A model generated the notes under the pieces. It saw nothing but the letters and a program-made list of their open reading frames with translations. It was not told where the DNA came from and searched no databases. From contig CALHCI010000006.1 in the NCBI GenBank assembly GCA_937931165.1, forward strand, positions 1 to 48,950: DNA of 48,950 nt. Reading direction: 5' to 3'. This document shows, in pieces, positions 18,943-41,018 of this stretch. The position numbers and the translations under genes are program-made. Source of the stretch: an uncultured Granulosicoccaceae bacterium (GTDB lineage: Bacteria; Pseudomonadota; Gammaproteobacteria; Granulosicoccales; Granulosicoccaceae). Position 1 is the stretch's first letter. The number at the start of each line of letters is the position of its first letter.

Positions 18943-19839
18943 ATGATACACGTGCTCGGTTCCATCAATATCGACTACTCCTGCAGTGTTGATCTGCTGC
19001 CACGCCCCGGTGAAACTATCGTCGGTAAGTCCCTGTTTACCACACCGGGAGGCAAGGGCGCGAACCAGGCCATTGCCGCCAGACGTGCCGGCAGTCCGGT
19101 CTGTATGATCGGCGCTATCGGCAGTGACGAAGTCGCCGAACAGGCTTTGCAGTGTCTAACCACAGACGGTGTGGATATCAGACAAATCAAAAAACTGCCC
19201 GGGCCAACCGGATGCGCGTTCGTGTTTGTGGACGCCGCCAGTGAAAACCAGATTGTAATTGTACCGGGTGCTAACGCCGGCGTGAGCGAAGACCAGGCCC
19301 GGCAGCTCAACATCGGGCAAAGTGATGTGTTGTTACTACAGCTCGAAGTGCCGGTGACCACCGTGGTTGCAGCAGCAGAGTATGCACATAAACACAGTGC
19401 TACCGTTATTGCGAATCTGGCGCCCTACCAGACTTTACCAGCGTCTTTTTTCGATACCATAGACATCCTGCTGGTCAATGAAACCGAAGCCGAATTACTT
19501 GCCGCAGACCTCCAACTAGACACCAGCCCGGACACTATTGCAGACACACTTGCAACACATCTAAAGACAACAGTAGTGCTAACACTGGGCGCACGAGGTG
19601 CGATAGCGGCAGACAACGGCCAATCATATTCAATATCCGGCGTGCAGGTAGAGTCCATAGACACGGTGGGCGCAGGTGACACCTTTGCCGGCTATCTCGG
19701 TGCTATGCTCGAACGCAACGAGCCGCTCAAGCGCGCCTGCGAAATTGCCAACAGTGCGGCAGCACTTGCGTGCACCAGATCCGGTGCGCAAACTGCAATG
19801 CCAGTGATCAGTGACCTGAAAATCAGCGGGTTGGAATAA
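18943..19839 (+). CDS. rbsK: Ribokinase
   Basis: This 298-residue PfkB-family sugar kinase phosphorylates ribose (or a related furanose) with ATP. The N-terminal GSINIDYSCSVDLLPRPGETI, the GGKGANQAIAARRAG substrate loop and the C-terminal DTVGAGDTFAGYLGAML anion-hole/catalytic motif with the catalytic Asp are those of RbsK. No ribose transporter or deoxyribose genes accompany it. Its stop codon overlaps the ATG of the next gene by one base (TAATG), so the two are translationally coupled. Confidence 0.9.
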   Translation: MIHVLGSINIDYSCSVDLLPRPGETIVGKSLFTTPGGKGANQAIAARRAGSPVCMIGAIGSDEVAEQALQCLTTDGVDIRQIKKLPGPTGCAFVFVDAASENQIVIVPGANAGVSEDQARQLNIGQSDVLLLQLEVPVTTVVAAAEYAHKHSATVIANLAPYQTLPASFFDTIDILLVNETEAELLAADLQLDTSPDTIADTLATHLKTTVVLTLGARGAIAADNGQSYSISGVQVESIDTVGAGDTFAGYLGAMLERNEPLKRACEIANSAAALACTRSGAQTAMPVISDLKISGLE

Positions 19840-20186
19840 TGGATACAATTACCACACAAAACAACTATATCGTTGTGCCGCCAGCCACACCCAACGATAA
19901 ATCAACCACAAGAAAAATCTCGAAAATTCTTGCAGACATTGAAGAAATAAAAGAGGCACACCTGCCGTCCATCATCGAGTTCGGTGAAAACACGCACGCC
20001 AAACCCGCGCTTTTTTTGCTGGTCTCAGAAGACTGCGACAGACCCGGTCTGCAAAAGCTGATTGATCAAAAACTAAACGGCGGGTTTTTCAGACGTAAAA
20101 GCATAACCGTCAGAGTGATTACAGAAGACAATCTGCTGCTGCAGTCTATCCGTGATGCAAAATGCCTGATTGGATGGAGAGACTAG
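19839..20186 (+). CDS. Unknown 115-residue protein coupled to ribokinase
   Basis: I do not recognise this family. The protein is small, charged and without signal peptide or membrane helix. It looks alpha/beta: a helical N-terminal part (KISKILADIEEIKEAHLPSI), a strand-turn element (ALFLLVSEDCDRPGLQKLID) and a strand near the end (SITVRVITEDNLLLQ), closing with KCLIGWRD. The start codon shares its first base with the stop of rbsK, so expression depends on ribokinase translation. A regulatory or accessory role beside the kinase is possible but unsupported. Confidence 0.75.
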   Translation: MDTITTQNNYIVVPPATPNDKSTTRKISKILADIEEIKEAHLPSIIEFGENTHAKPALFLLVSEDCDRPGLQKLIDQKLNGGFFRRKSITVRVITEDNLLLQSIRDAKCLIGWRD

Positions 20187-20233: not shown

Positions 20234-21673
20234 TCAGTCATGTTTAGCAGCTGAGCCGTATTTAGAACGGTGCAGTGTTTTAGCCTGTTGTACCCATTTG
20301 TCGCGCTGTATGCGTCCCGAGAACTGCGGCAGTTGCTCATCAAGCTCTGCGACGCCTTTCTTGTCAAGTAGCGCTACCTGCCTGAAGTAATACACACCGG
20401 TTTTATGCAACAGCTTTTCAAGCACCGGACCCACACCTTTAATCTCTTGCAGATCGTCACGCTCTGATTTTTTTGGCGTAATCTCAGGCACCGACCAGGC
20501 AGTCGGCGTATAACCGTTTGCTGTCGCTTTCTTATCTTTGGATTTACTGACGGAAGTGCTGCCGGATGTCTTAGGCGCAGATGATTCAGTCTGTTTAGCT
20601 TCCGGCTGTTGTGTTTCACGCTGTGGTGTATCTGGAGCCTGCATCGCCTGCATCGCCTGCATCGCCTGATTAGCACTTTCCGCAGTCACTGCTGTCTGCT
20701 GGCTTTCCTGTATCTCTTCCGGGACTTCCTGCGGCGTTAAGACAGGTGCAGTTTGCAGGTTTGAACTGGTTTCGGCATCAGCGTCCGCCGCACGATTCAG
20801 TGCCGGAGACGTTGCAGAACGATGTGCAGGTGCAGAACTTGTCACCGTATCGGCAGCCGAATTACCCCTGGTTTCTGACCCGGTGTTTGCTGCTGAATCG
20901 CTACCTTGCCCTGCAGCACGGCGGGTGGGTGTGTAGCTCGACAGATGATGCACAGTACCACCCTGTGGTGTAGCGGTATCATTGGCCATTGTCTGCTGTG
21001 AATTTTCGATCCCGCCTTTTTCCTGCTTCAGCTGTTGAAGCTCGGCTTCCCTTTCCAGCAGTTGGCGATTGAGATCATCATTTTCCTGCCGCTGCTGATC
21101 AATTGTCTTTTCAAATTGTTCTTTCTGTTCAGACAATTGCTGTTGCGAGCTGTCGTAACGGCTTTGCAATCCGGCTGCATCACGCACTTTGGACGCGTTT
21201 TCATCATCCATCGACTCCTCAAGCTGATGACTGAGATTCTTGTGGCGATTATTCAGATCCATAAACGCCTGCTCAAGTTCAGACTTCGCGGCCTGTTCCT
21301 TTTTTAACGCCTGAGTGAGTTCGTCAATCTCTACCTGTTGCTCGACACTGCTATCTGTTGGTGACAACGTGGCAGACTGATCAAGCCTCTGAAGATCGGT
21401 ATCTTCAACAGTTATATCCGCTTTTTCTTCAATCTCTGCCGTTAACTGCTGTAGTTGCTGCTCGGCAAGTTCGGCACGCTGCAATGCCGCATCCCGCTCT
21501 TCTATCAATACCGTGGCTGACCCCTGAACAGGTGCCTGCGCAGGCTGCTCCACAACCTGGACTGGTGAAACTGATTTATGTCGGCGCCATCGCCACAATA
21601 ACCAACCGGTCGCAAGACCAACCAAAAACGTTGTTAGTAGTGGAACAACAATATCCCAAAGTACCCAAGGCAT
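20234..21673 (-). CDS. Membrane-anchored coiled-coil protein with HhH-type end
   Basis: This 479-residue protein begins with MPWVLWDIVVP and one membrane helix with a WRWRR-K stop-transfer (about residues 7-32). A long Gln/Glu-rich coiled coil (about 55-220) follows, then a low-complexity Ser/Thr/Ala/Pro linker with an MQA triplet array. The C-terminal domain (about 405-475) reads DLQEIKGVGPVLEKLL...YYFRQVALL..GRIQRDKWVQQA, the helix-hairpin-helix-like domain seen in ribosomal-L21-fused and NADH-dehydrogenase-E-fused proteins. It begins 17 bases after the OmpA/BON gene stop, with AAGGGA upstream, so it is the second gene of that operon. The gene at 38770-39405 is a shorter paralog with the same N-terminus but no such C-terminal domain. 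Confidence 0.82.
   Translation of the reverse strand: MPWVLWDIVVPLLTTFLVGLATGWLLWRWRRHKSVSPVQVVEQPAQAPVQGSATVLIEERDAALQRAELAEQQLQQLTAEIEEKADITVEDTDLQRLDQSATLSPTDSSVEQQVEIDELTQALKKEQAAKSELEQAFMDLNNRHKNLSHQLEESMDDENASKVRDAAGLQSRYDSSQQQLSEQKEQFEKTIDQQRQENDDLNRQLLEREAELQQLKQEKGGIENSQQTMANDTATPQGGTVHHLSSYTPTRRAAGQGSDSAANTGSETRGNSAADTVTSSAPAHRSATSPALNRAADADAETSSNLQTAPVLTPQEVPEEIQESQQTAVTAESANQAMQAMQAMQAPDTPQRETQQPEAKQTESSAPKTSGSTSVSKSKDKKATANGYTPTAWSVPEITPKKSERDDLQEIKGVGPVLEKLLHKTGVYYFRQVALLDKKGVAELDEQLPQFSGRIQRDKWVQQAKTLHRSKYGSAAKHD
20637..20668 (-). repeat. 9-bp tandem repeat in linker
   Basis: The unit GCATCGCCT is repeated about three times and encodes the MQA-MQA-MQA run in the linker of the coiled-coil protein. 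It lies in low-complexity linker sequence and may vary in copy number between strains. Confidence 0.7.
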
Positions 21674-21690
21674 AACAGTATCCCTTAACT

Positions 21691-23358
21691 CTATTTAGAT
21701 GGTTGCCGATCGGGCACACTAAAATGCACACGACGATTACGTTTTCGACCTTCACTGGTGTCATTTGCAACCAGTGGCAATCTCGACCCATAGCCGACAG
21801 CAATCAGCCTTGAAGCATCGATTGTCTGACTGACCAGGTATTGCCGTACTGACTCAGCACGGTCTATGCTTAATTTTTCGTTAACCAGCTCACGGCCGAC
21901 ATTATCAGTATGCCCTTCGACTTCAACTCGCATATCCGGGTAACGCTGCAACACTTCAACAATCTGATTAAGTGTCAGCTCGGCGTCACTGGTTAATCTC
22001 GCAGTGCCGCTGTTAAACAACACGTTATCCCGCACCTGCGGTGCCAGTGAATCCAGCTCACCCTGCAATGAATGTATTGCAAATTCCAGACTCTGTTGTG
22101 GAGTACTGATTGCGGCGTTGTTTTCCACAGTAATGTTTTCCGTGACAAGAATTCCGCGGCCTCGAGCAGAGGCAGCAACCTCTTGCAGTGTGGCTTTCAT
22201 TTGAACACTGGCCACTGCCGCTGCCACGGTTAATTCACTGCCCTGAAGATTAATCTGACCGCTGACACCGGGTTTAAACCTGGCAACGATATCTGCCAGT
22301 CCTTCCACTCTTGAGTCGCTACCCGGAATGCGTGACGTCTCATCGCTAACGCTGACCTGATCGACAACATGTGAGTCACCAGCTGCTTCACGCGCTGCAA
22401 AAGCCAGCCTTCTGTGCTGCTCGTCTGTCAGTACCTGGCCCTGCAGGGTTAACGACGTACCATCGCTATTTACAGTGATATCAACAACACCGGTTCGCGC
22501 GACGGTTGTCTGACCGCTGATATTAAAATCAACAATCGCCGCAGTGGCGGCATTTTCAATTTGATCGGCATTGGCTTGATCAGAGGTGTTAACCCGATAG
22601 TCGAGTCGTGATTTATCCAGCGAGGCAGAAAACACATTGACATGCTCAACACGGGCAGCGTTCAGCATATTTGCCAACACTGCCACTCTGGATGCAGATG
22701 TCTCTTCCGGAACATCAAGCACCTCGAGGTTGTCCTGAATGTGTTCAACACCGGTGGTTAGCAATGCATCAACAAGCGTGCGCCGCTGACTAACCGATTC
22801 GACAACACCATCGATAACTGCAGTCTGGTCTTGCAGGCTGACATCCACCGCCAGAGAGGTACCGACCAGAGAGGTGCCAACGATATTCGAATTGACTGCA
22901 TCTGCCACTACTGCGGTTTCTAAAGCGTTGTCTGTCGGTGCGGTTATCACCAGTGAGTTGTCACCGGTAGATGGTTTGGCGAAGACTTCGATATTTCTAA
23001 TGCCGGTGGCAAATAGTGCAGTACCTTGCTCGTCTTCATTTTGCAGAATATCAGCCAGCTGTTCTGCGGTGACACCTTGCGGCAATTCACCGTGAATGCT
23101 GACATCGCGATAAGACCAGCGTAAATTCAGTGTTGAGGCATCTAGCCCCGCTTGCTCAAGCTGCAACAGGCTGCGCTGATTGAGCCTGGACTCGATATGC
23201 GGAATTCCCCACATCAGCGTCACAAACACTGCAACAGCAAGCGCCCACAAGCTTACCGTCCACGTCAGGCGACGGGACCACGGCTGTGGTTCGTCCTGTG
23301 TGGCACGTAAGTAGGGCGTCCAACCATTATCTCTGGTTTTTTGGATCGTTTCTGACAC
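21691..23358 (-). CDS. Inner-membrane OmpA-family protein with BON-like repeats (copy 1)
   Basis: The 555-residue protein has a short cytosolic N-terminus with a GW motif, one uncleaved membrane helix (about 31-51, ending WGIPHIESRL), several BON-like alpha/beta units (about 65-410, for example LTLQGQVLTDEQHRRLAFAAREAAGDS) and a C-terminal OmpA peptidoglycan-binding domain (about 435-550: VLFNSGTARLT, VEVEGHTDNVGRE, LSIDRAESVRQYL, GRKRNRRVHF). It should link the inner membrane to the cell wall. The architecture is like ArfA/OmpATb of Mycobacterium tuberculosis. The start is GTG at 23358 with AAAGG just before. It is the first gene of the pair with the coiled-coil protein, and is paralogous to 39453-41018. 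Confidence 0.88.
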   Translation of the reverse strand: MSETIQKTRDNGWTPYLRATQDEPQPWSRRLTWTVSLWALAVAVFVTLMWGIPHIESRLNQRSLLQLEQAGLDASTLNLRWSYRDVSIHGELPQGVTAEQLADILQNEDEQGTALFATGIRNIEVFAKPSTGDNSLVITAPTDNALETAVVADAVNSNIVGTSLVGTSLAVDVSLQDQTAVIDGVVESVSQRRTLVDALLTTGVEHIQDNLEVLDVPEETSASRVAVLANMLNAARVEHVNVFSASLDKSRLDYRVNTSDQANADQIENAATAAIVDFNISGQTTVARTGVVDITVNSDGTSLTLQGQVLTDEQHRRLAFAAREAAGDSHVVDQVSVSDETSRIPGSDSRVEGLADIVARFKPGVSGQINLQGSELTVAAAVASVQMKATLQEVAASARGRGILVTENITVENNAAISTPQQSLEFAIHSLQGELDSLAPQVRDNVLFNSGTARLTSDAELTLNQIVEVLQRYPDMRVEVEGHTDNVGRELVNEKLSIDRAESVRQYLVSQTIDASRLIAVGYGSRLPLVANDTSEGRKRNRRVHFSVPDRQPSK

Positions 23359-23608: not shown

Positions 23609-24325
23609 TTGACACTATCTATAAATAGCAGCCATTCACCGAAATACCAGCTCGGACTTGGTTGCCTGCCAATTTTCGGACTGCTGATTCTCACCGTCAT
23701 CATCACGGTTGCAGGGACCGTCTGGGCGATTAATAGTCCGTGGCTCAACAGCAAATTCAAACCCGTTGAACTCTCGGAGTCCGAGCAACTCGACTTGTCA
23801 CAGAAGCTCGAGGCGATTGGAGATTTCGGTGTCACACCGGAGGAAGACAAACCGGCCAACACCGAGTTTCGTACCGATATTGGTAACACGACAGAAGCAT
23901 TGCAGCCTGAGGTCTATGCAGAAGATCAAAGCAAGCGAAGAATCGAACTGACCGAGCGTGAGCTCAACGCACTGCTTGCGGAAAATACCGACCTCGCTGA
24001 ACAGGTGGTTGTGGCACTCACCGACAACACAGCAAGCGTGAAGCTGCTGGTCGATCTGGATCCGGACTTTCCGTTCATTGGCGGTAAAACGCTGAAAGTC
24101 AGCAGCGGGACGGAATTATCTTATGCCAACAATCAGCCCTCGGTAGTGATGAGAGGTGTCAGCGTGTGGGGGGTACCTATTCCCAATGCATGGCTGGGCG
24201 GCCTAAAAAATGTTGATCTTATTGAACAATTTGGCGCATCTGACGGATTCTGGAAATCATTTGCTGATGGCATTGAAGATATACGGATCGAAAACGGTAA
24301 ACTACTGATACAGCTTGCCGAATAG
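23609..24325 (+). CDS. Hypothetical membrane-anchored protein
   Basis: The product has 238 residues from a TTG start at 23609 (weak ribosome binding site, so the start is uncertain). One membrane helix with a Gly-rich flank (GLGCLPIFGLLILTVIITVA) is near the N-terminus. The remainder is presumably periplasmic, with the motif RRIELTERELNALLAEN followed by a beta-rich stretch (ASVKLLVDLDPDFPFIGGKTLKV). That order, an ELN-type helix then an amphipathic sheet, is seen in lipid-binding-type envelope proteins such as DUF2140, but I would not assign it. It is followed 63 bases later by the Fpg/Nei-type gene. Confidence 0.7.
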   Translation: MTLSINSSHSPKYQLGLGCLPIFGLLILTVIITVAGTVWAINSPWLNSKFKPVELSESEQLDLSQKLEAIGDFGVTPEEDKPANTEFRTDIGNTTEALQPEVYAEDQSKRRIELTERELNALLAENTDLAEQVVVALTDNTASVKLLVDLDPDFPFIGGKTLKVSSGTELSYANNQPSVVMRGVSVWGVPIPNAWLGGLKNVDLIEQFGASDGFWKSFADGIEDIRIENGKLLIQLAE

Positions 24326-36079: not shown

Positions 36080-37318
36080 ATGAATCGATCAATTCTACTG
36101 AAACGCAAGTGGCTACCGATTGCGTTAGTACCAATGATGAGCGTTGCTGTCCTTTCCGGATGTAGCAGCGACAATGACAGCAGCGGCACGGATAACACCG
36201 ACAACGGCAGCGTGGTAGCCGGCGATGCAGACGGAAACGGCATTCCAGACGGTTTTGAAGTCGCTACTACTGGCGGCGAAGACATCAACCCGACGGATAG
36301 CATTGACGACAGATTCGCACCGACCAGTGCAGACACTGACACTAATAACAACGGCATTGATGACTCATTTGAACCGTCACTGTCTGGCGGTGAAGATGCG
36401 GACGACGATGGTATCGACGATGCTGCGCTGGCTGCATTAACCGGTACAGATGGCACCGACGGTACCGATGGCACTGACGGTACAGATGGCACTGACGGTA
36501 CGGATGGCACTGACGGTACAGATGGCACCGACGGTACGGATGGCACTGACGGTACGGATGGCACCGACGGTACTGACACCGGTGATGGAGTGGGAACCGG
36601 AGAACTGGCCGTTGTTGGTTTTGAGGGCGAAACAGATGCTAACCAGATCGGCGACGTTACACTGAGCTGGGACGGCAGCAACTTCAGCGGCAATGTCACC
36701 ACTGAAGCCGGCGTGGGCGCTACTTCCGCGGCACTGTACAGAGGCATTGCAGCATCTGCAGATGCTGGGACCAAGCTTATTGATCTGAGCGGCAGTGGTC
36801 CGAATTTTGACTATCCAATCGGTCTGTCTGCAGATCAGTCTTCACCCATTGCCGATGCCTTTGCTTCCGGCAACCTGTTTGTAAGAATAGAAACAGGGTC
36901 AGGTCCAATTGATTCATTCCAGTTGCTTCCACCGAGTAATGCTGTGGTTGCTACCTACACGGCGTTGGGATCTTCCGACACCACCGTTATTTCACGTGGT
37001 GATGCATTTATGAATCTTAATACCACTACCGGTGACTACGCGGTCTATCTCAATGTGGGTATCAGTGACCAGGACGTTGATGCTGAAGGCAACACCGTCA
37101 CTTTATCTGGCGCACACATTCACTCCACGTCAGCAGCAGGTCCGGTACTTGTACCACTGAGCGACATCGGAACAGGCAATGAATTCCGCGCCACCGGAAC
37201 GCTGGATGCCACTCAGCTACAAGTGATTACTTCTAACAATGGCTGGTATAACGTTCATCTGAATGACGGCACTACTCCGGGAGCTAGCTTCCTGACAGGT
37301 CAAATCCAGACACCGTAA
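36080..37318 (+). CDS. CHRD-domain lipoprotein with Gly-Thr-Asp repeat
   Basis: This 412-residue protein begins with a lipoprotein signal (lipobox VLSGC). Asp/Asn-rich calcium-like loops (DADGNGIPDGFE, DTNNNGIDDSFE, DADDDGIDD) follow, then 15 tandem Gly-Thr-Asp triplets at residues 122-166. The C-terminal part is a CHRD domain (GDAFMNLNTTTGDYAVYLN, LSGAHIHSTSAAGPVLVPL, GWYNVHLNDGTTPGASFLTG). The Asp-rich repeat resembles a flexible, acidic or collagen-like stalk. It is probably an exposed or periplasmic lipoprotein. A strong terminator follows. Confidence 0.85.
   Translation: MNRSILLKRKWLPIALVPMMSVAVLSGCSSDNDSSGTDNTDNGSVVAGDADGNGIPDGFEVATTGGEDINPTDSIDDRFAPTSADTDTNNNGIDDSFEPSLSGGEDADDDGIDDAALAALTGTDGTDGTDGTDGTDGTDGTDGTDGTDGTDGTDGTDGTDGTDGTDTGDGVGTGELAVVGFEGETDANQIGDVTLSWDGSNFSGNVTTEAGVGATSAALYRGIAASADAGTKLIDLSGSGPNFDYPIGLSADQSSPIADAFASGNLFVRIETGSGPIDSFQLLPPSNAVVATYTALGSSDTTVISRGDAFMNLNTTTGDYAVYLNVGISDQDVDAEGNTVTLSGAHIHSTSAAGPVLVPLSDIGTGNEFRATGTLDATQLQVITSNNGWYNVHLNDGTTPGASFLTGQIQTP
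36443..36577 (+). repeat. Coding tandem repeat, 15 Gly-Thr-Asp units
   Basis: Fifteen 9-bp units alternate between GGTAC(A/C/G/T)GA(T/C) and GGCAC(C/T)GAC, so the true unit is 18 bp (Gly-Thr-Asp twice). Copies differ only at third positions, which suggests recent expansion or homogenisation and possible length variation. Confidence 0.95.
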
Positions 37319-38769: not shown

Positions 38770-39405
38770 CTACAGACGATTGTTGGATTGATCGAGTAGT
38801 TTTTCCAGTGCATCGATTTTTCGATCACGCAACGCGACGCAGGCTTCAAGCGATGTGTTGTCCTTTGACGATCCAAACTGATCGAGAGAAGTCTTTAGCG
38901 TTGCGATCATGGCATCACGTGCTTTGATTGCTTCTTTTAATTCTGCATCGCTGTTAGCGACTGACACCGTGTTTTTATCGGCAGACTCAAGGTCTGCAAT
39001 ACGCCTTTGCGCACCGTGCAGTTTCGCTTCAAGTTCACGCACCCGATTGACACTGTCAGCCGGCGCACCGGCCTTGCGCAACTGATCAATCTGTTGTCGT
39101 GACGTTTTGAGCTCGGCAGACAGTACGTCAATACGTTTACGCGCACGTGTAAGCTCAGACTGGTCTTCACGGTTGTTTGCCTGCCGTGAACCGCTGGCCA
39201 CCTGCAAACGATCGGACAGCTCGGCGTTTCGAATTCGCAGGTTGTCTGCATCGGTTTTAAATCTTGAAGCGCTGCGTCGAAGGCTGAGCAGGGAATCGCT
39301 GTCGACTCTGCTGCGACGCCAGCGCCACAACATCCAGCCTACAAGAAGACCAACCAGAAACGCCGCAATAATCGGCAAAAAGATATCCCACAGTACCCAA
39401 AGCAT
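38770..39405 (-). CDS. Short membrane-anchored coiled-coil protein (copy 2)
   Basis: This 211-residue paralog of the protein at 20234-21673 starts MLWVLWDIFLPIIAAFLVG with a membrane helix and the same WRWRR boundary. A coiled coil of Arg/Leu/Glu heptads (about 40-205) follows. It lacks the low-complexity linker and the helix-hairpin-helix-like C-terminal domain of copy 1. It is the second gene of a pair with the OmpA/BON protein (47-base gap), as in copy 1. A role as envelope partner of the OmpA protein is inferred. Confidence 0.82.
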   Translation of the reverse strand: MLWVLWDIFLPIIAAFLVGLLVGWMLWRWRRSRVDSDSLLSLRRSASRFKTDADNLRIRNAELSDRLQVASGSRQANNREDQSELTRARKRIDVLSAELKTSRQQIDQLRKAGAPADSVNRVRELEAKLHGAQRRIADLESADKNTVSVANSDAELKEAIKARDAMIATLKTSLDQFGSSKDNTSLEACVALRDRKIDALEKLLDQSNNRL

Positions 39406-39452
39406 ATGCTTCCCCGGTGTTGTTTTCTGCTACTACTAACTATTTAACGCCA

Positions 39453-41018
39453 CTAATTATCGAAACTGCCGCGGGATGAAAATTCCACGCGACGATTTTG
39501 TTTTCTACCCACTTCCGTATCATTGCTGGCCAGTGGCGAACTCTCTCCAAAACCTACTGCACGCAGCCGTAACTGATCAATACCGCTGTCTTCGAGGTAC
39601 TGCCCAACGGATGCAGCACGTTCAAGGCTGAGGAGTTCGTTATCAATACTGGATCCATTACTGTCTGTATGACCGGCGATGATGACGACAGGTCGTTGAT
39701 ACTGATTCATTGCATCCACAACTTTGTCGAGTGTCTGTTTAGCGCTGAAATTGAGGCCGGTTTGTGATGTGTCGAAAACCACATTCTCTCGAATTTCATC
39801 TGCCAGTAAGTCTATTTCCTGTTGCAGCAGCGCTACCTCCCTGGCCAGTGAGATTCTGCGCGATTCTATGACTCCCGATACATCCAGTCCGTTGTCAGCA
39901 GCACGCTGCCGCACCGCAAACATCGGTGCCGTATCTTCTTCATATTCCACAAACGCATCGAATTCAAATACATTGCCGGTAATGTGTGCTTTGGCTTCTT
40001 CGGCGCCGGAAAAGGTGTCGAGTGCCGCCAGTACCAGTTGCATACGATCAGCGGCGTTGTCGTAATCATCGTTGGGCGCGACGGTAAGCTCATCGATTAC
40101 TGCACCGTCTCCAGCAGCCACGCTTGCCGCGTTGAGCAGTTGTTGTCTTTGTTGTTCACTGATCACCACACCTGACACAGTGATACGATCATCTGCCTTG
40201 GCCGCACGCACATCGAACACCGCACCGGGAACGCTTTTCTTGGCAACAATGTCACCGCTGATCACAAGCCCTACATCCCCTGCACTGCCACGACGCTGCA
40301 ACAGATCGACGACCTGATTCTCATCGGATACGGTGGCATTAAAGCGAAAGTCTGTGGCAGACAATGCCGCATCGGCATCGGTGGCCTGATCAAGTCCGGC
40401 AATAGAATTGGCAAAACTGTCGATACGCTTATCTGCGCCGGGTATCTCTTCCTGCAGGCCTGATACTTTTATTTCACGGACAACGTTTTCGGCACCGAGT
40501 GTTCCGGCTGCCGCCTCATAGACACGGGTACGTTGTGCGTCGGTGAGTACCGTACCGCGCAATACCATCTTGCCATCGGTCAGGGTGGCGACCAGATCTA
40601 CGGTGCCTTTGCGTTGCTCTGATTCAACGACTTTCTCTGCAGCGGTTAGTTGTAAGTCGATATCGCGAATGCCACCGCCATCGGTAGTTCTTAACACATT
40701 GACCAGTTGTTGCTCGGAAACTCCGGCGGGCAATTCACCGCTGAGCTTAAGGTTTCGATAGTCCCAGTCAAACTCAAGTTGATCGAGATTAACACCGGCA
40801 CTGGCAAGGTCAGCGCGTGTGCTTTTATCGAGCCTGGACTCAAAGTGTTTGACTCCCCAGACAGTAGTAAGAGCAGCTACAGCAGCCAGCATTAACAGCC
40901 CGAAAAATCCGGTAGTGCTTTTTTTCCACGGCCACTGCTTGCCACGACCCGGTGGTACAAACGCAGCCCACCCGGAATTTTCTGCATGGTCGTTTACTTC
41001 ATGGTGTTCGGAGGGCAT
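39453..41018 (-). CDS. Inner-membrane OmpA-family protein with BON-like repeats (copy 2)
   Basis: This 521-residue paralog of the protein at 21691-23358 has the same order: cytosolic N-terminus with a GW motif, membrane helix (about 36-55, ending WGVKHFESRL), BON-like units (GELPAGVSEQQL, MVLRGTVLTDAQRTRVYEAA, ITVSGVVISEQQRQQLLNAA) and a C-terminal OmpA domain (VVFDTSQTGLNFSAKQTL, VIIAGHTDSNGSSIDNELLS, GRKQNRRVEFSS). The shared N-terminal region through ...GELPxGV is clearly homologous between copies, while the middle is diverged. It should tether inner membrane to peptidoglycan. ATG at 41018. Confidence 0.88.
   Translation of the reverse strand: MPSEHHEVNDHAENSGWAAFVPPGRGKQWPWKKSTTGFFGLLMLAAVAALTTVWGVKHFESRLDKSTRADLASAGVNLDQLEFDWDYRNLKLSGELPAGVSEQQLVNVLRTTDGGGIRDIDLQLTAAEKVVESEQRKGTVDLVATLTDGKMVLRGTVLTDAQRTRVYEAAAGTLGAENVVREIKVSGLQEEIPGADKRIDSFANSIAGLDQATDADAALSATDFRFNATVSDENQVVDLLQRRGSAGDVGLVISGDIVAKKSVPGAVFDVRAAKADDRITVSGVVISEQQRQQLLNAASVAAGDGAVIDELTVAPNDDYDNAADRMQLVLAALDTFSGAEEAKAHITGNVFEFDAFVEYEEDTAPMFAVRQRAADNGLDVSGVIESRRISLAREVALLQQEIDLLADEIRENVVFDTSQTGLNFSAKQTLDKVVDAMNQYQRPVVIIAGHTDSNGSSIDNELLSLERAASVGQYLEDSGIDQLRLRAVGFGESSPLASNDTEVGRKQNRRVEFSSRGSFDN

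Follow-up and report, generated by a model that had tools for sequence, protein, structure and literature searches.

The DNA analysed here is a whole contig (CALHCI010000006.1, 48,950 nucleotides, hereafter the window) from the 4.86 Mb assembly GCA_937931165.1 of an uncultured Granulosicoccaceae bacterium. It encodes two homologous copies of a two-gene envelope module, each joining an OmpA/BON gene (OA) to a gene for a coiled-coil membrane partner (CC). What stays constant in the module is a BON-type membrane protein together with a partner that has a GxxxGW transmembrane (TM) helix, and related pairs reach other families of the Gammaproteobacteria (hereafter the class) and extend beyond the class. 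We give even chances to the proposal that each pair is a non-motor, wall-anchored trans-membrane scaffold that presents a cytoplasmic coiled-coil rod. The features of the two copies are as follows.

21691..23358, minus strand: OA1 (555 amino acids (aa), GTG start), predicted TM helix, five BON-like beta-beta-alpha-beta repeats (in the model) and OmpA peptidoglycan-binding domain; from open reading frame (ORF), Pfam and AlphaFold model.
20234..21673, minus strand: CC1 (479 aa), predicted N-out TM helix (VLWDI..GLATGWLLWRWRR), coiled coil at about residues 40-235, low-complexity linker and helix-hairpin-helix (HhH) domain; from ORF, profile, topology and heptad periodicity.
20237..20461, minus strand: HhH domain of CC1, its final 75 residues; from profile matches and model.
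39453..41018, minus strand: OA2 (521 aa), paralogue of OA1.
38770..39405, minus strand: CC2 (211 aa), predicted TM helix (VLWDI..GLLVGWMLWRWRR) and coiled coil, with no HhH domain found by NCBIfam and profile searches.

Two homologous copies of the pair

An earlier note, made from the letters alone, had described a membrane OmpA/BON gene followed 17 nt on by a coiled-coil gene, and the same pair in the same order at 38770-41018. ORFs and Pfam bear this out. The two pairs lie about 15 kb apart, the gap within copy 2 is 47 nt, and all four genes share one strand. Pfam detects OmpA (OA1 1.7e-22, OA2 4.6e-20) and BON (3.7e-07 and 1.1e-08, respectively) in both OAs. OA1 and OA2 are homologous throughout (29% identity over 545 columns, E 6e-56), and CC1 and CC2 share 21 of 33 N-terminal residues (64%, E 9e-17), with no significant similarity beyond these first 33. 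The signatures WGxxHxESRL and VLWDI..WRWRR, which the note had picked out at the N-termini of the OA and CC proteins, are indeed carried by both copies. The homology of the copies thereby stands, and the OA tree agrees with it, but a single duplication does not account for the module, since the genome holds at least six paralogous pairs. In a scan of copy 1, promoter-like sites numbered 2 against 3.0 expected and terminator-like sites 9 against 3.4 expected.

Anatomy of the two proteins

The AlphaFold model of OA1 (7 sequences; mean predicted local distance difference test score (pLDDT) 71.8, predicted TM-score (pTM) 0.32) has a TM helix at residues 29-69, repeats at about 77-129, 170-213, 240-286, 293-337 and 366-411, another helix spanning 420-445 and, from about 446 to 547, the OmpA domain. 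Its fold matches reach a target TM-score of 0.90 against OmpA domains. The peptidoglycan signature TDxxG-N-LSxxR is present in 49 of 55 OAs, including OA1 and OA2 (one 5'-cut row was dropped); it deviates in the five OAs of copy 4 and in one of copy 1. By motif and fold, OA is predicted to be a peptidoglycan binder of the OmpA family.

The partner is best defined by its membrane helix. Lysine and arginine (K/R) are in surplus after the TM helix relative to before it in all 56 paired CCs (mean 3.68 versus 0.04), and 63 of 65 partners lack another hydrophobic stretch past residue 50, i.e. have a single TM helix. This helix is nearly gap-free across the family alignment, with G19 and G23 almost invariant. 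Among 65 partners that we picked from the pairs, GxxxG occurs in 57 N-termini, against 11 in shuffles, and small-xxx-small-W in 58, against 6.8. Windowed heptad periodicity was reached by 0 of 400 shuffles for CC2, by 4 of 400 for CC1 residues 40-235 and by 0 of 400 for each of four paralogues from the same genome; in the CC1 linker it was not significant. The GxxxGW helix appears to be the constant mark of the partner, behind which the tails vary: they carry no HhH domain, an HhH domain or DUF4332, and partners extend to 1,146 aa. In L045 (191-1178) the copy 2 partner is found as a tandem duplicate, a 73-aa remnant followed by a 235-aa gene.

The HhH-like end that the earlier note gave to the coiled-coil partner is found in CC1 and not in CC2, and is better seen as an optional end. 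HhH as a defining part of the module was ruled out because CC2, the partners of 394, 638 and 1146 aa in the same genome and the Granulosicoccus-type partners show none. By profile, the CC1 end is probably an HhH domain of the COG3743/DUF4332 (PF14229) type, COG3743 being a label that we presume to apply. It resembles the C-terminal ends of the NCBIfam models for NuoE, ribosomal proteins L21 and S2 and the phasin PhaH (below the model cut-offs), and it matches protein-O in structures of the reaction centre-light harvesting 1 (RC-LH1) complex of D. shibae (8yy9_O, 2.7e-22; 9wqv_a, 5.7e-24). The model of this end (94 residues, pLDDT 69.7) yielded weak fold matches, none of them significant. The best (E 0.75) were mitoribosome chains, followed mostly by HhH-bearing DNA- and protein-binding proteins; the HhH-type neighbours include regions of DNA polymerase iota, Hel308 and Rad51, as well as NusA and the RNA polymerase alpha C-terminal domain (alpha-CTD).

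Elsewhere in the same genome, L068 (6298-7236, contig C18) encodes a ribosomal protein L21 (PF00829, 7e-39) with two C-terminal HhH domains. Among the class genomes searched with the HhH profile, only two others matched. Outside the class, carriers of the domain include NuoE-like, S2 and L21 proteins, as well as a TM protein encoded next to nuoF-like genes. In L128, L138 and L144, also outside the class, TM-HhH genes were seen by eye beside nuoE- and nuoF-like genes.

Six pairs in one genome

For 28 OmpA-domain ORFs of the genome, we considered the next gene. A blind rule was fixed on topology alone: an N-terminal TM helix with K/R after it and not before. Six of the 28 match the N-terminal profile of the module, and all six are followed by a partner that passes the rule, compared with 1 of the 22 other OmpA-domain genes. 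That single control gene precedes an EamA transporter, and 11 of the 22 controls lack any gene on the same strand within 300 nt. The six partners measure 479, 211, 1031, 394, 638 and 1146 residues. A search of the genome with a TM-only profile (A10) returned all six, by construction since they are among its rows, together with one more gene on contig C147 (E 7.9e-9) and two further weak matches (E 0.18 and 0.32). The C147 gene (L365, 2-3901) is partner-like, with at least 1300 aa behind a GxxxGW TM helix, and is cut by the contig end; no OmpA gene lies in the 6 kb upstream of it. A 637-residue, 5'-cut ORF with HhH domains on contig C237 may be a further partner.

Linkage in other genomes

In related genomes the coiled-coil gene is normally linked to the OmpA gene. 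Of the two findings that the earlier note would have taken as refuting, usually unlinked genes and non-homologous copies, neither was made. OA1 has matches at E <= 1e-30 in all 13 other genomes of the genus that were searched and in one of another genus of the family (15 of 57 genomes, its own included). Copies 1 and 2 both occur across the genus and also in genus g5. We fetched 54 OA-profile loci for an OA or OmpA match, two of which are apparently the two halves of a single gene (G009). The blind rule is passed at 45 of them, five lie at a contig edge and four miss the rule; at these four (L045, L060, L114 and L123) a TM gene of the partner kind adjoins the OA or lies about 310 nt off, outside the limits on distance, position or charge. 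Counted in this way, a partner is present at 49 of 49 loci with DNA left downstream (45 by the blind rule, 4 by eye).

Related pairs accompany 11 of the 17 DUF4332 regions in the class; the exceptions are L296, L300, L301, L302, L304 and L306, and at L302 an OmpA gene instead lies downstream. Genus g4 contributes three regions with a partner of 258-270 aa and an acidic tail. Outside the class, 8 of 20 HhH regions contain an adjacent OmpA gene, and three of the remaining 12 that were checked are NuoE-like, S2 and L21 fusions. Among the matches listed for named metagenome-assembled genomes (MAGs), pairs occur in Arenicella, Hyphomicrobium, Tepidamorphaceae and two genomes labelled Acidimicrobiia/Acidimicrobiaceae; the sole Granulosicoccus MAG among them has an OmpA fragment only, with no partner behind it. 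A plasmid search with the Hyphomicrobium partner gave 6 records that cover at most 39% of the query.

We also started from the partner. Profile A10 has matches in 31 of 340 class genomes. OmpA lies directly upstream at 34 of 42 places examined, which were drawn from the 48 strongest of 58; the other eight are taken up below. A10 shares rows with the genomes that it re-found, and a less circular sample of 20 regions is fairer: OmpA is upstream at 14, an OA-profile match without a detectable OmpA domain at 3 and neither at 3.

Two ORFs flank copy 1 (19839-20186 and 23609-24325) and have no trusted Pfam domain. G009 and another genus (L054/L055, L064) have equivalent ORFs in the same positions around copy 1. 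Further along the window, the ORF at 36080-37318 is lipoprotein-like and contains a long GTD repeat, with a weak match to Collagen (7.4e-06).

Paired evolution

A tree built from 56 OAs recovers copy 1 (100/98) and copy 2 (100/100) as clades that are sisters (96/89), with the copy 4 set next to them (100/100). Because both copies occur across the genus and in g5 as sister clades, the simplest reading is that they were duplicated before the two genera diverged. The sets with a single partner type (c1, c2, c3, c4, c5 and g4) form one clade each.

The earlier note had imagined a co-evolving partner, and the distances are in keeping with this. Across 12 species, partial mirror correlations are 0.51 for OA1-CC1 and 0.76 for OA2-CC2, versus -0.12 and 0.31 for the crossed pairs, so that covariation within a pair exceeds what the distances of the other pair explain. 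Together with the packing motif of the partner helix, this favours a physical OA-CC complex.

A proposed wall-anchored scaffold and its alternatives

Domain content, the topology signal of the partner, coil periodicity, linkage and paired evolution are the sequence features on which we build the scaffold proposal. They support a wall grip, membrane anchoring and a cytoplasmic rod fairly strongly, whereas complex formation, TM packing, cargo and purpose are what we infer. OA would place one helix in the inner membrane, span the periplasm with its BON stack and grip peptidoglycan with its OmpA domain. The single GxxxGW helix of CC would insert with its N-terminus outside and pack beside the OA helix. 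Taking 0.1485 nm per residue, its coiled-coil rod would then project about 25-30 nm into the cytoplasm here and as much as about 160 nm in one paralogue. The rod end could dock cytoplasmic cargo at a fixed position relative to the wall, with the HhH end of copy 1 as the likely docking piece; consistent with this, the HhH domain occurs elsewhere on cytoplasmic proteins. DNA, RNA or HhH-tagged proteins are possible cargoes.

Several observations weigh against this reading. Linked genes can show shared rates without binding. The OA tree does not unite the mixed HhH set (4 changes) and groups the DUF4332 set weakly (73/96). A cruder whole-length test of coil periodicity was not significant (304 and 374 of 2000). 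The TM flanks of OA itself fail to follow the positive-inside rule, with more K/R after the helix in 16 of 27, before it in 2 and equal numbers in 9; since these flanks give no signal, the periplasmic side is assigned to OA because of its OmpA domain. Five of the 42 A10 places (L300, L301, L365, L380 and L382) have no OA-like gene upstream, and three more have an OA-profile match without a detectable OmpA domain (L381 with Pfam BON, L379 with BON just under the cut-off and L383 without BON).

Loci of named genomes are a further counterweight. A scan with a broad OA alignment, of which the best 80 loci were kept, returned mostly OmpA-domain bystanders, and 39 match the OA profile. Five of these have a TM/HhH partner next to them, one has a TM-HhH gene upstream and four have a short hydrophobic neighbour, namely the Bradyrhizobium/Afipia/Hyphomicrobiales OAs, whose neighbours of 96-102 aa lack a rod. 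The other 29 have no partner, and most look secreted. These secreted-looking proteins, mostly from Betaproteobacteria, share BON-like and OmpA domains with OA and differ in that, among the 30 loci without a downstream partner, 22 have an AxA site following the hydrophobic stretch, which is a rough sign of secretion, and 29 have no partner at all. Since 29 of the 39 loci are partnerless, BON plus OmpA is insufficient to predict a partner, which seems to accompany the membrane-anchored form of OA. Partners without an OmpA neighbour and partnerless secreted BON-OmpA proteins both exist.

L381 (627-1355) and L379 (4332-5954) encode BON-type proteins in which no OmpA domain is detectable, directly upstream of a TM-HhH partner; these may be versions of the pair that lack the wall grip. 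In L380 (4320-5121), a short GxxxGW TM gene directly precedes a bactofilin gene (PF04519, 8.7e-24), with no OmpA gene in the region.

Among the alternatives, we consider it unlikely, though worth keeping in view, that the pairs tether the nucleoid to the wall, with HhH or basic rod ends that bind DNA and fix regions of the chromosome. DUF4332/HHH_5 matches in partners speak for it, as do the HhH regions of DNA polymerase iota, Hel308 and Rad51 among the fold neighbours of the CC1 end (none below E 0.75) and the basic ends of two HhH-less rods (L320 +6 and L322 +5 within 30 residues). The phasin PhaH has a similar end, and DNA-binding phasins exist. Yet CC2 and three other paired partners of the genome have no HhH domain, the CC2-type tails are about neutral and the Granulosicoccus-type tails are acidic (-3 to -4). 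The same domain on NuoE-like, L21 and S2 proteins and on protein-O suggests a broader ligand; some HhH domains, such as those of NusA, bind proteins.

A further idea, which we regard as improbable, is that HhH serves as a docking tag for protein or RNA and that the rods gather HhH-tagged machines (ribosomes via L21, complex I, granules) at the envelope. The genome does carry HhH on L21, in two copies, and on CC1, and the carriers outside the class include NuoE-like, S2 and L21 proteins and the TM protein by nuoF-like genes, a nuoE/nuoF neighbourhood that is also the position of D. shibae protein-O (PMC12079452). Protein-O is likewise a membrane protein with the end domain of CC1 behind a flexible loop; it differs in having a two-helix TM domain and a place between nuoE and nuoF, with no OmpA neighbour reported (PMC12079452). 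Against the tag, the physiological role of the HhH domain of protein-O was called obscure in the same study (PMC12079452).

We are about equally doubtful that the two proteins act independently in the envelope and are kept together by co-regulation, for example in an ArfA-like acid or stress operon. The architecture of OA is ArfA-like, as the earlier note had proposed. The best PDB match that spans BON and OmpA is Rv0899 (2l26, phmmer 1.9e-17), which also ranks first by E-value in a Foldseek search with the OA1 model (6.4e-13). The TM-score is low (0.18/0.37) because the domains are placed differently. ArfA/OmpATb has a role in acid adaptation and ammonia secretion, and its operon includes the small membrane proteins ArfB and ArfC. 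The ompATb operon is reported to be linked to acid adaptation. Rv0899 has the same N-terminal anchor, BON-fold centre and C-terminal OmpA domain (PMC6151718). The paired covariation and the identical adjacency in six paralogues of the genome and in distant families argue against mere co-regulation. OA1 also departs from ArfA in its approximately five BON-like repeats (in the model), its adjoining GxxxGW coiled-coil partner and its non-mycobacterial host. OA alone is ArfA-like; the pair is more than ArfA.

An ion-driven signalling unit of the stator or Zorya kind, with OA as MotB/ZorB and CC as a ZorA-like tail, is very improbable: although the OA OmpA domain matches the PADLOC ZorB model (1.2e-12), 53 of 55 OAs have no aspartate or glutamate in their TM window (the other two are doubtful, one a misplaced window and one at the helix end), the partners have one TM helix in 63 of 65 cases and not a MotA-type bundle, and the gene order differs from zorA-zorB. 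ZorAB does have a comparable plan: an OmpA-domain protein with one TM helix stands next to a membrane protein that extends a rod into the cytoplasm, and defence requires this rod as well as the peptidoglycan-binding domain (PMC11890865). Pfam found no Zorya effector-like gene among nine neighbours, and PADLOC was applied to the four module proteins. Membership among MotB/ZorB stators was rejected, as the TM aspartate and a multi-TM partner are absent. Because these stator-defining features are missing and the partner adds to an ArfA-like OA, we file the pair under neither ArfA nor ZorAB.

Implications

The suspicion that the system is undescribed has held so far: the open-licence PMC literature yielded no description of an OmpA/BON and GxxxGW pair, and an account elsewhere is possible. 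A bolder extension of the wall-anchored scaffold, which we offer tentatively and think rather unlikely, is that such pairs form a widespread, unrecognised proteobacterial class. Peptidoglycan-gripping BON/OmpA proteins, coupled via the GxxxGW helix to cytoplasmic coiled-coil rods of 25-160 nm, would position the nucleoid or HhH-tagged machines by a logic like that of golgins or of linker of nucleoskeleton and cytoskeleton (LINC) complexes in eukaryotes, and six would operate in parallel in one genome with differing rod lengths and ends.

The module would give a context to an otherwise orphan HhH domain that is found on L21, NuoE-like, S2 and phasin proteins as well as on a subunit of a photosynthetic complex. 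How cytoplasmic structures are anchored at fixed places relative to the bacterial wall is largely an open question. With a conserved two-gene module predicted to hold the wall from one side of the inner membrane and to extend a rod from the other, this question of positioning becomes directly testable.

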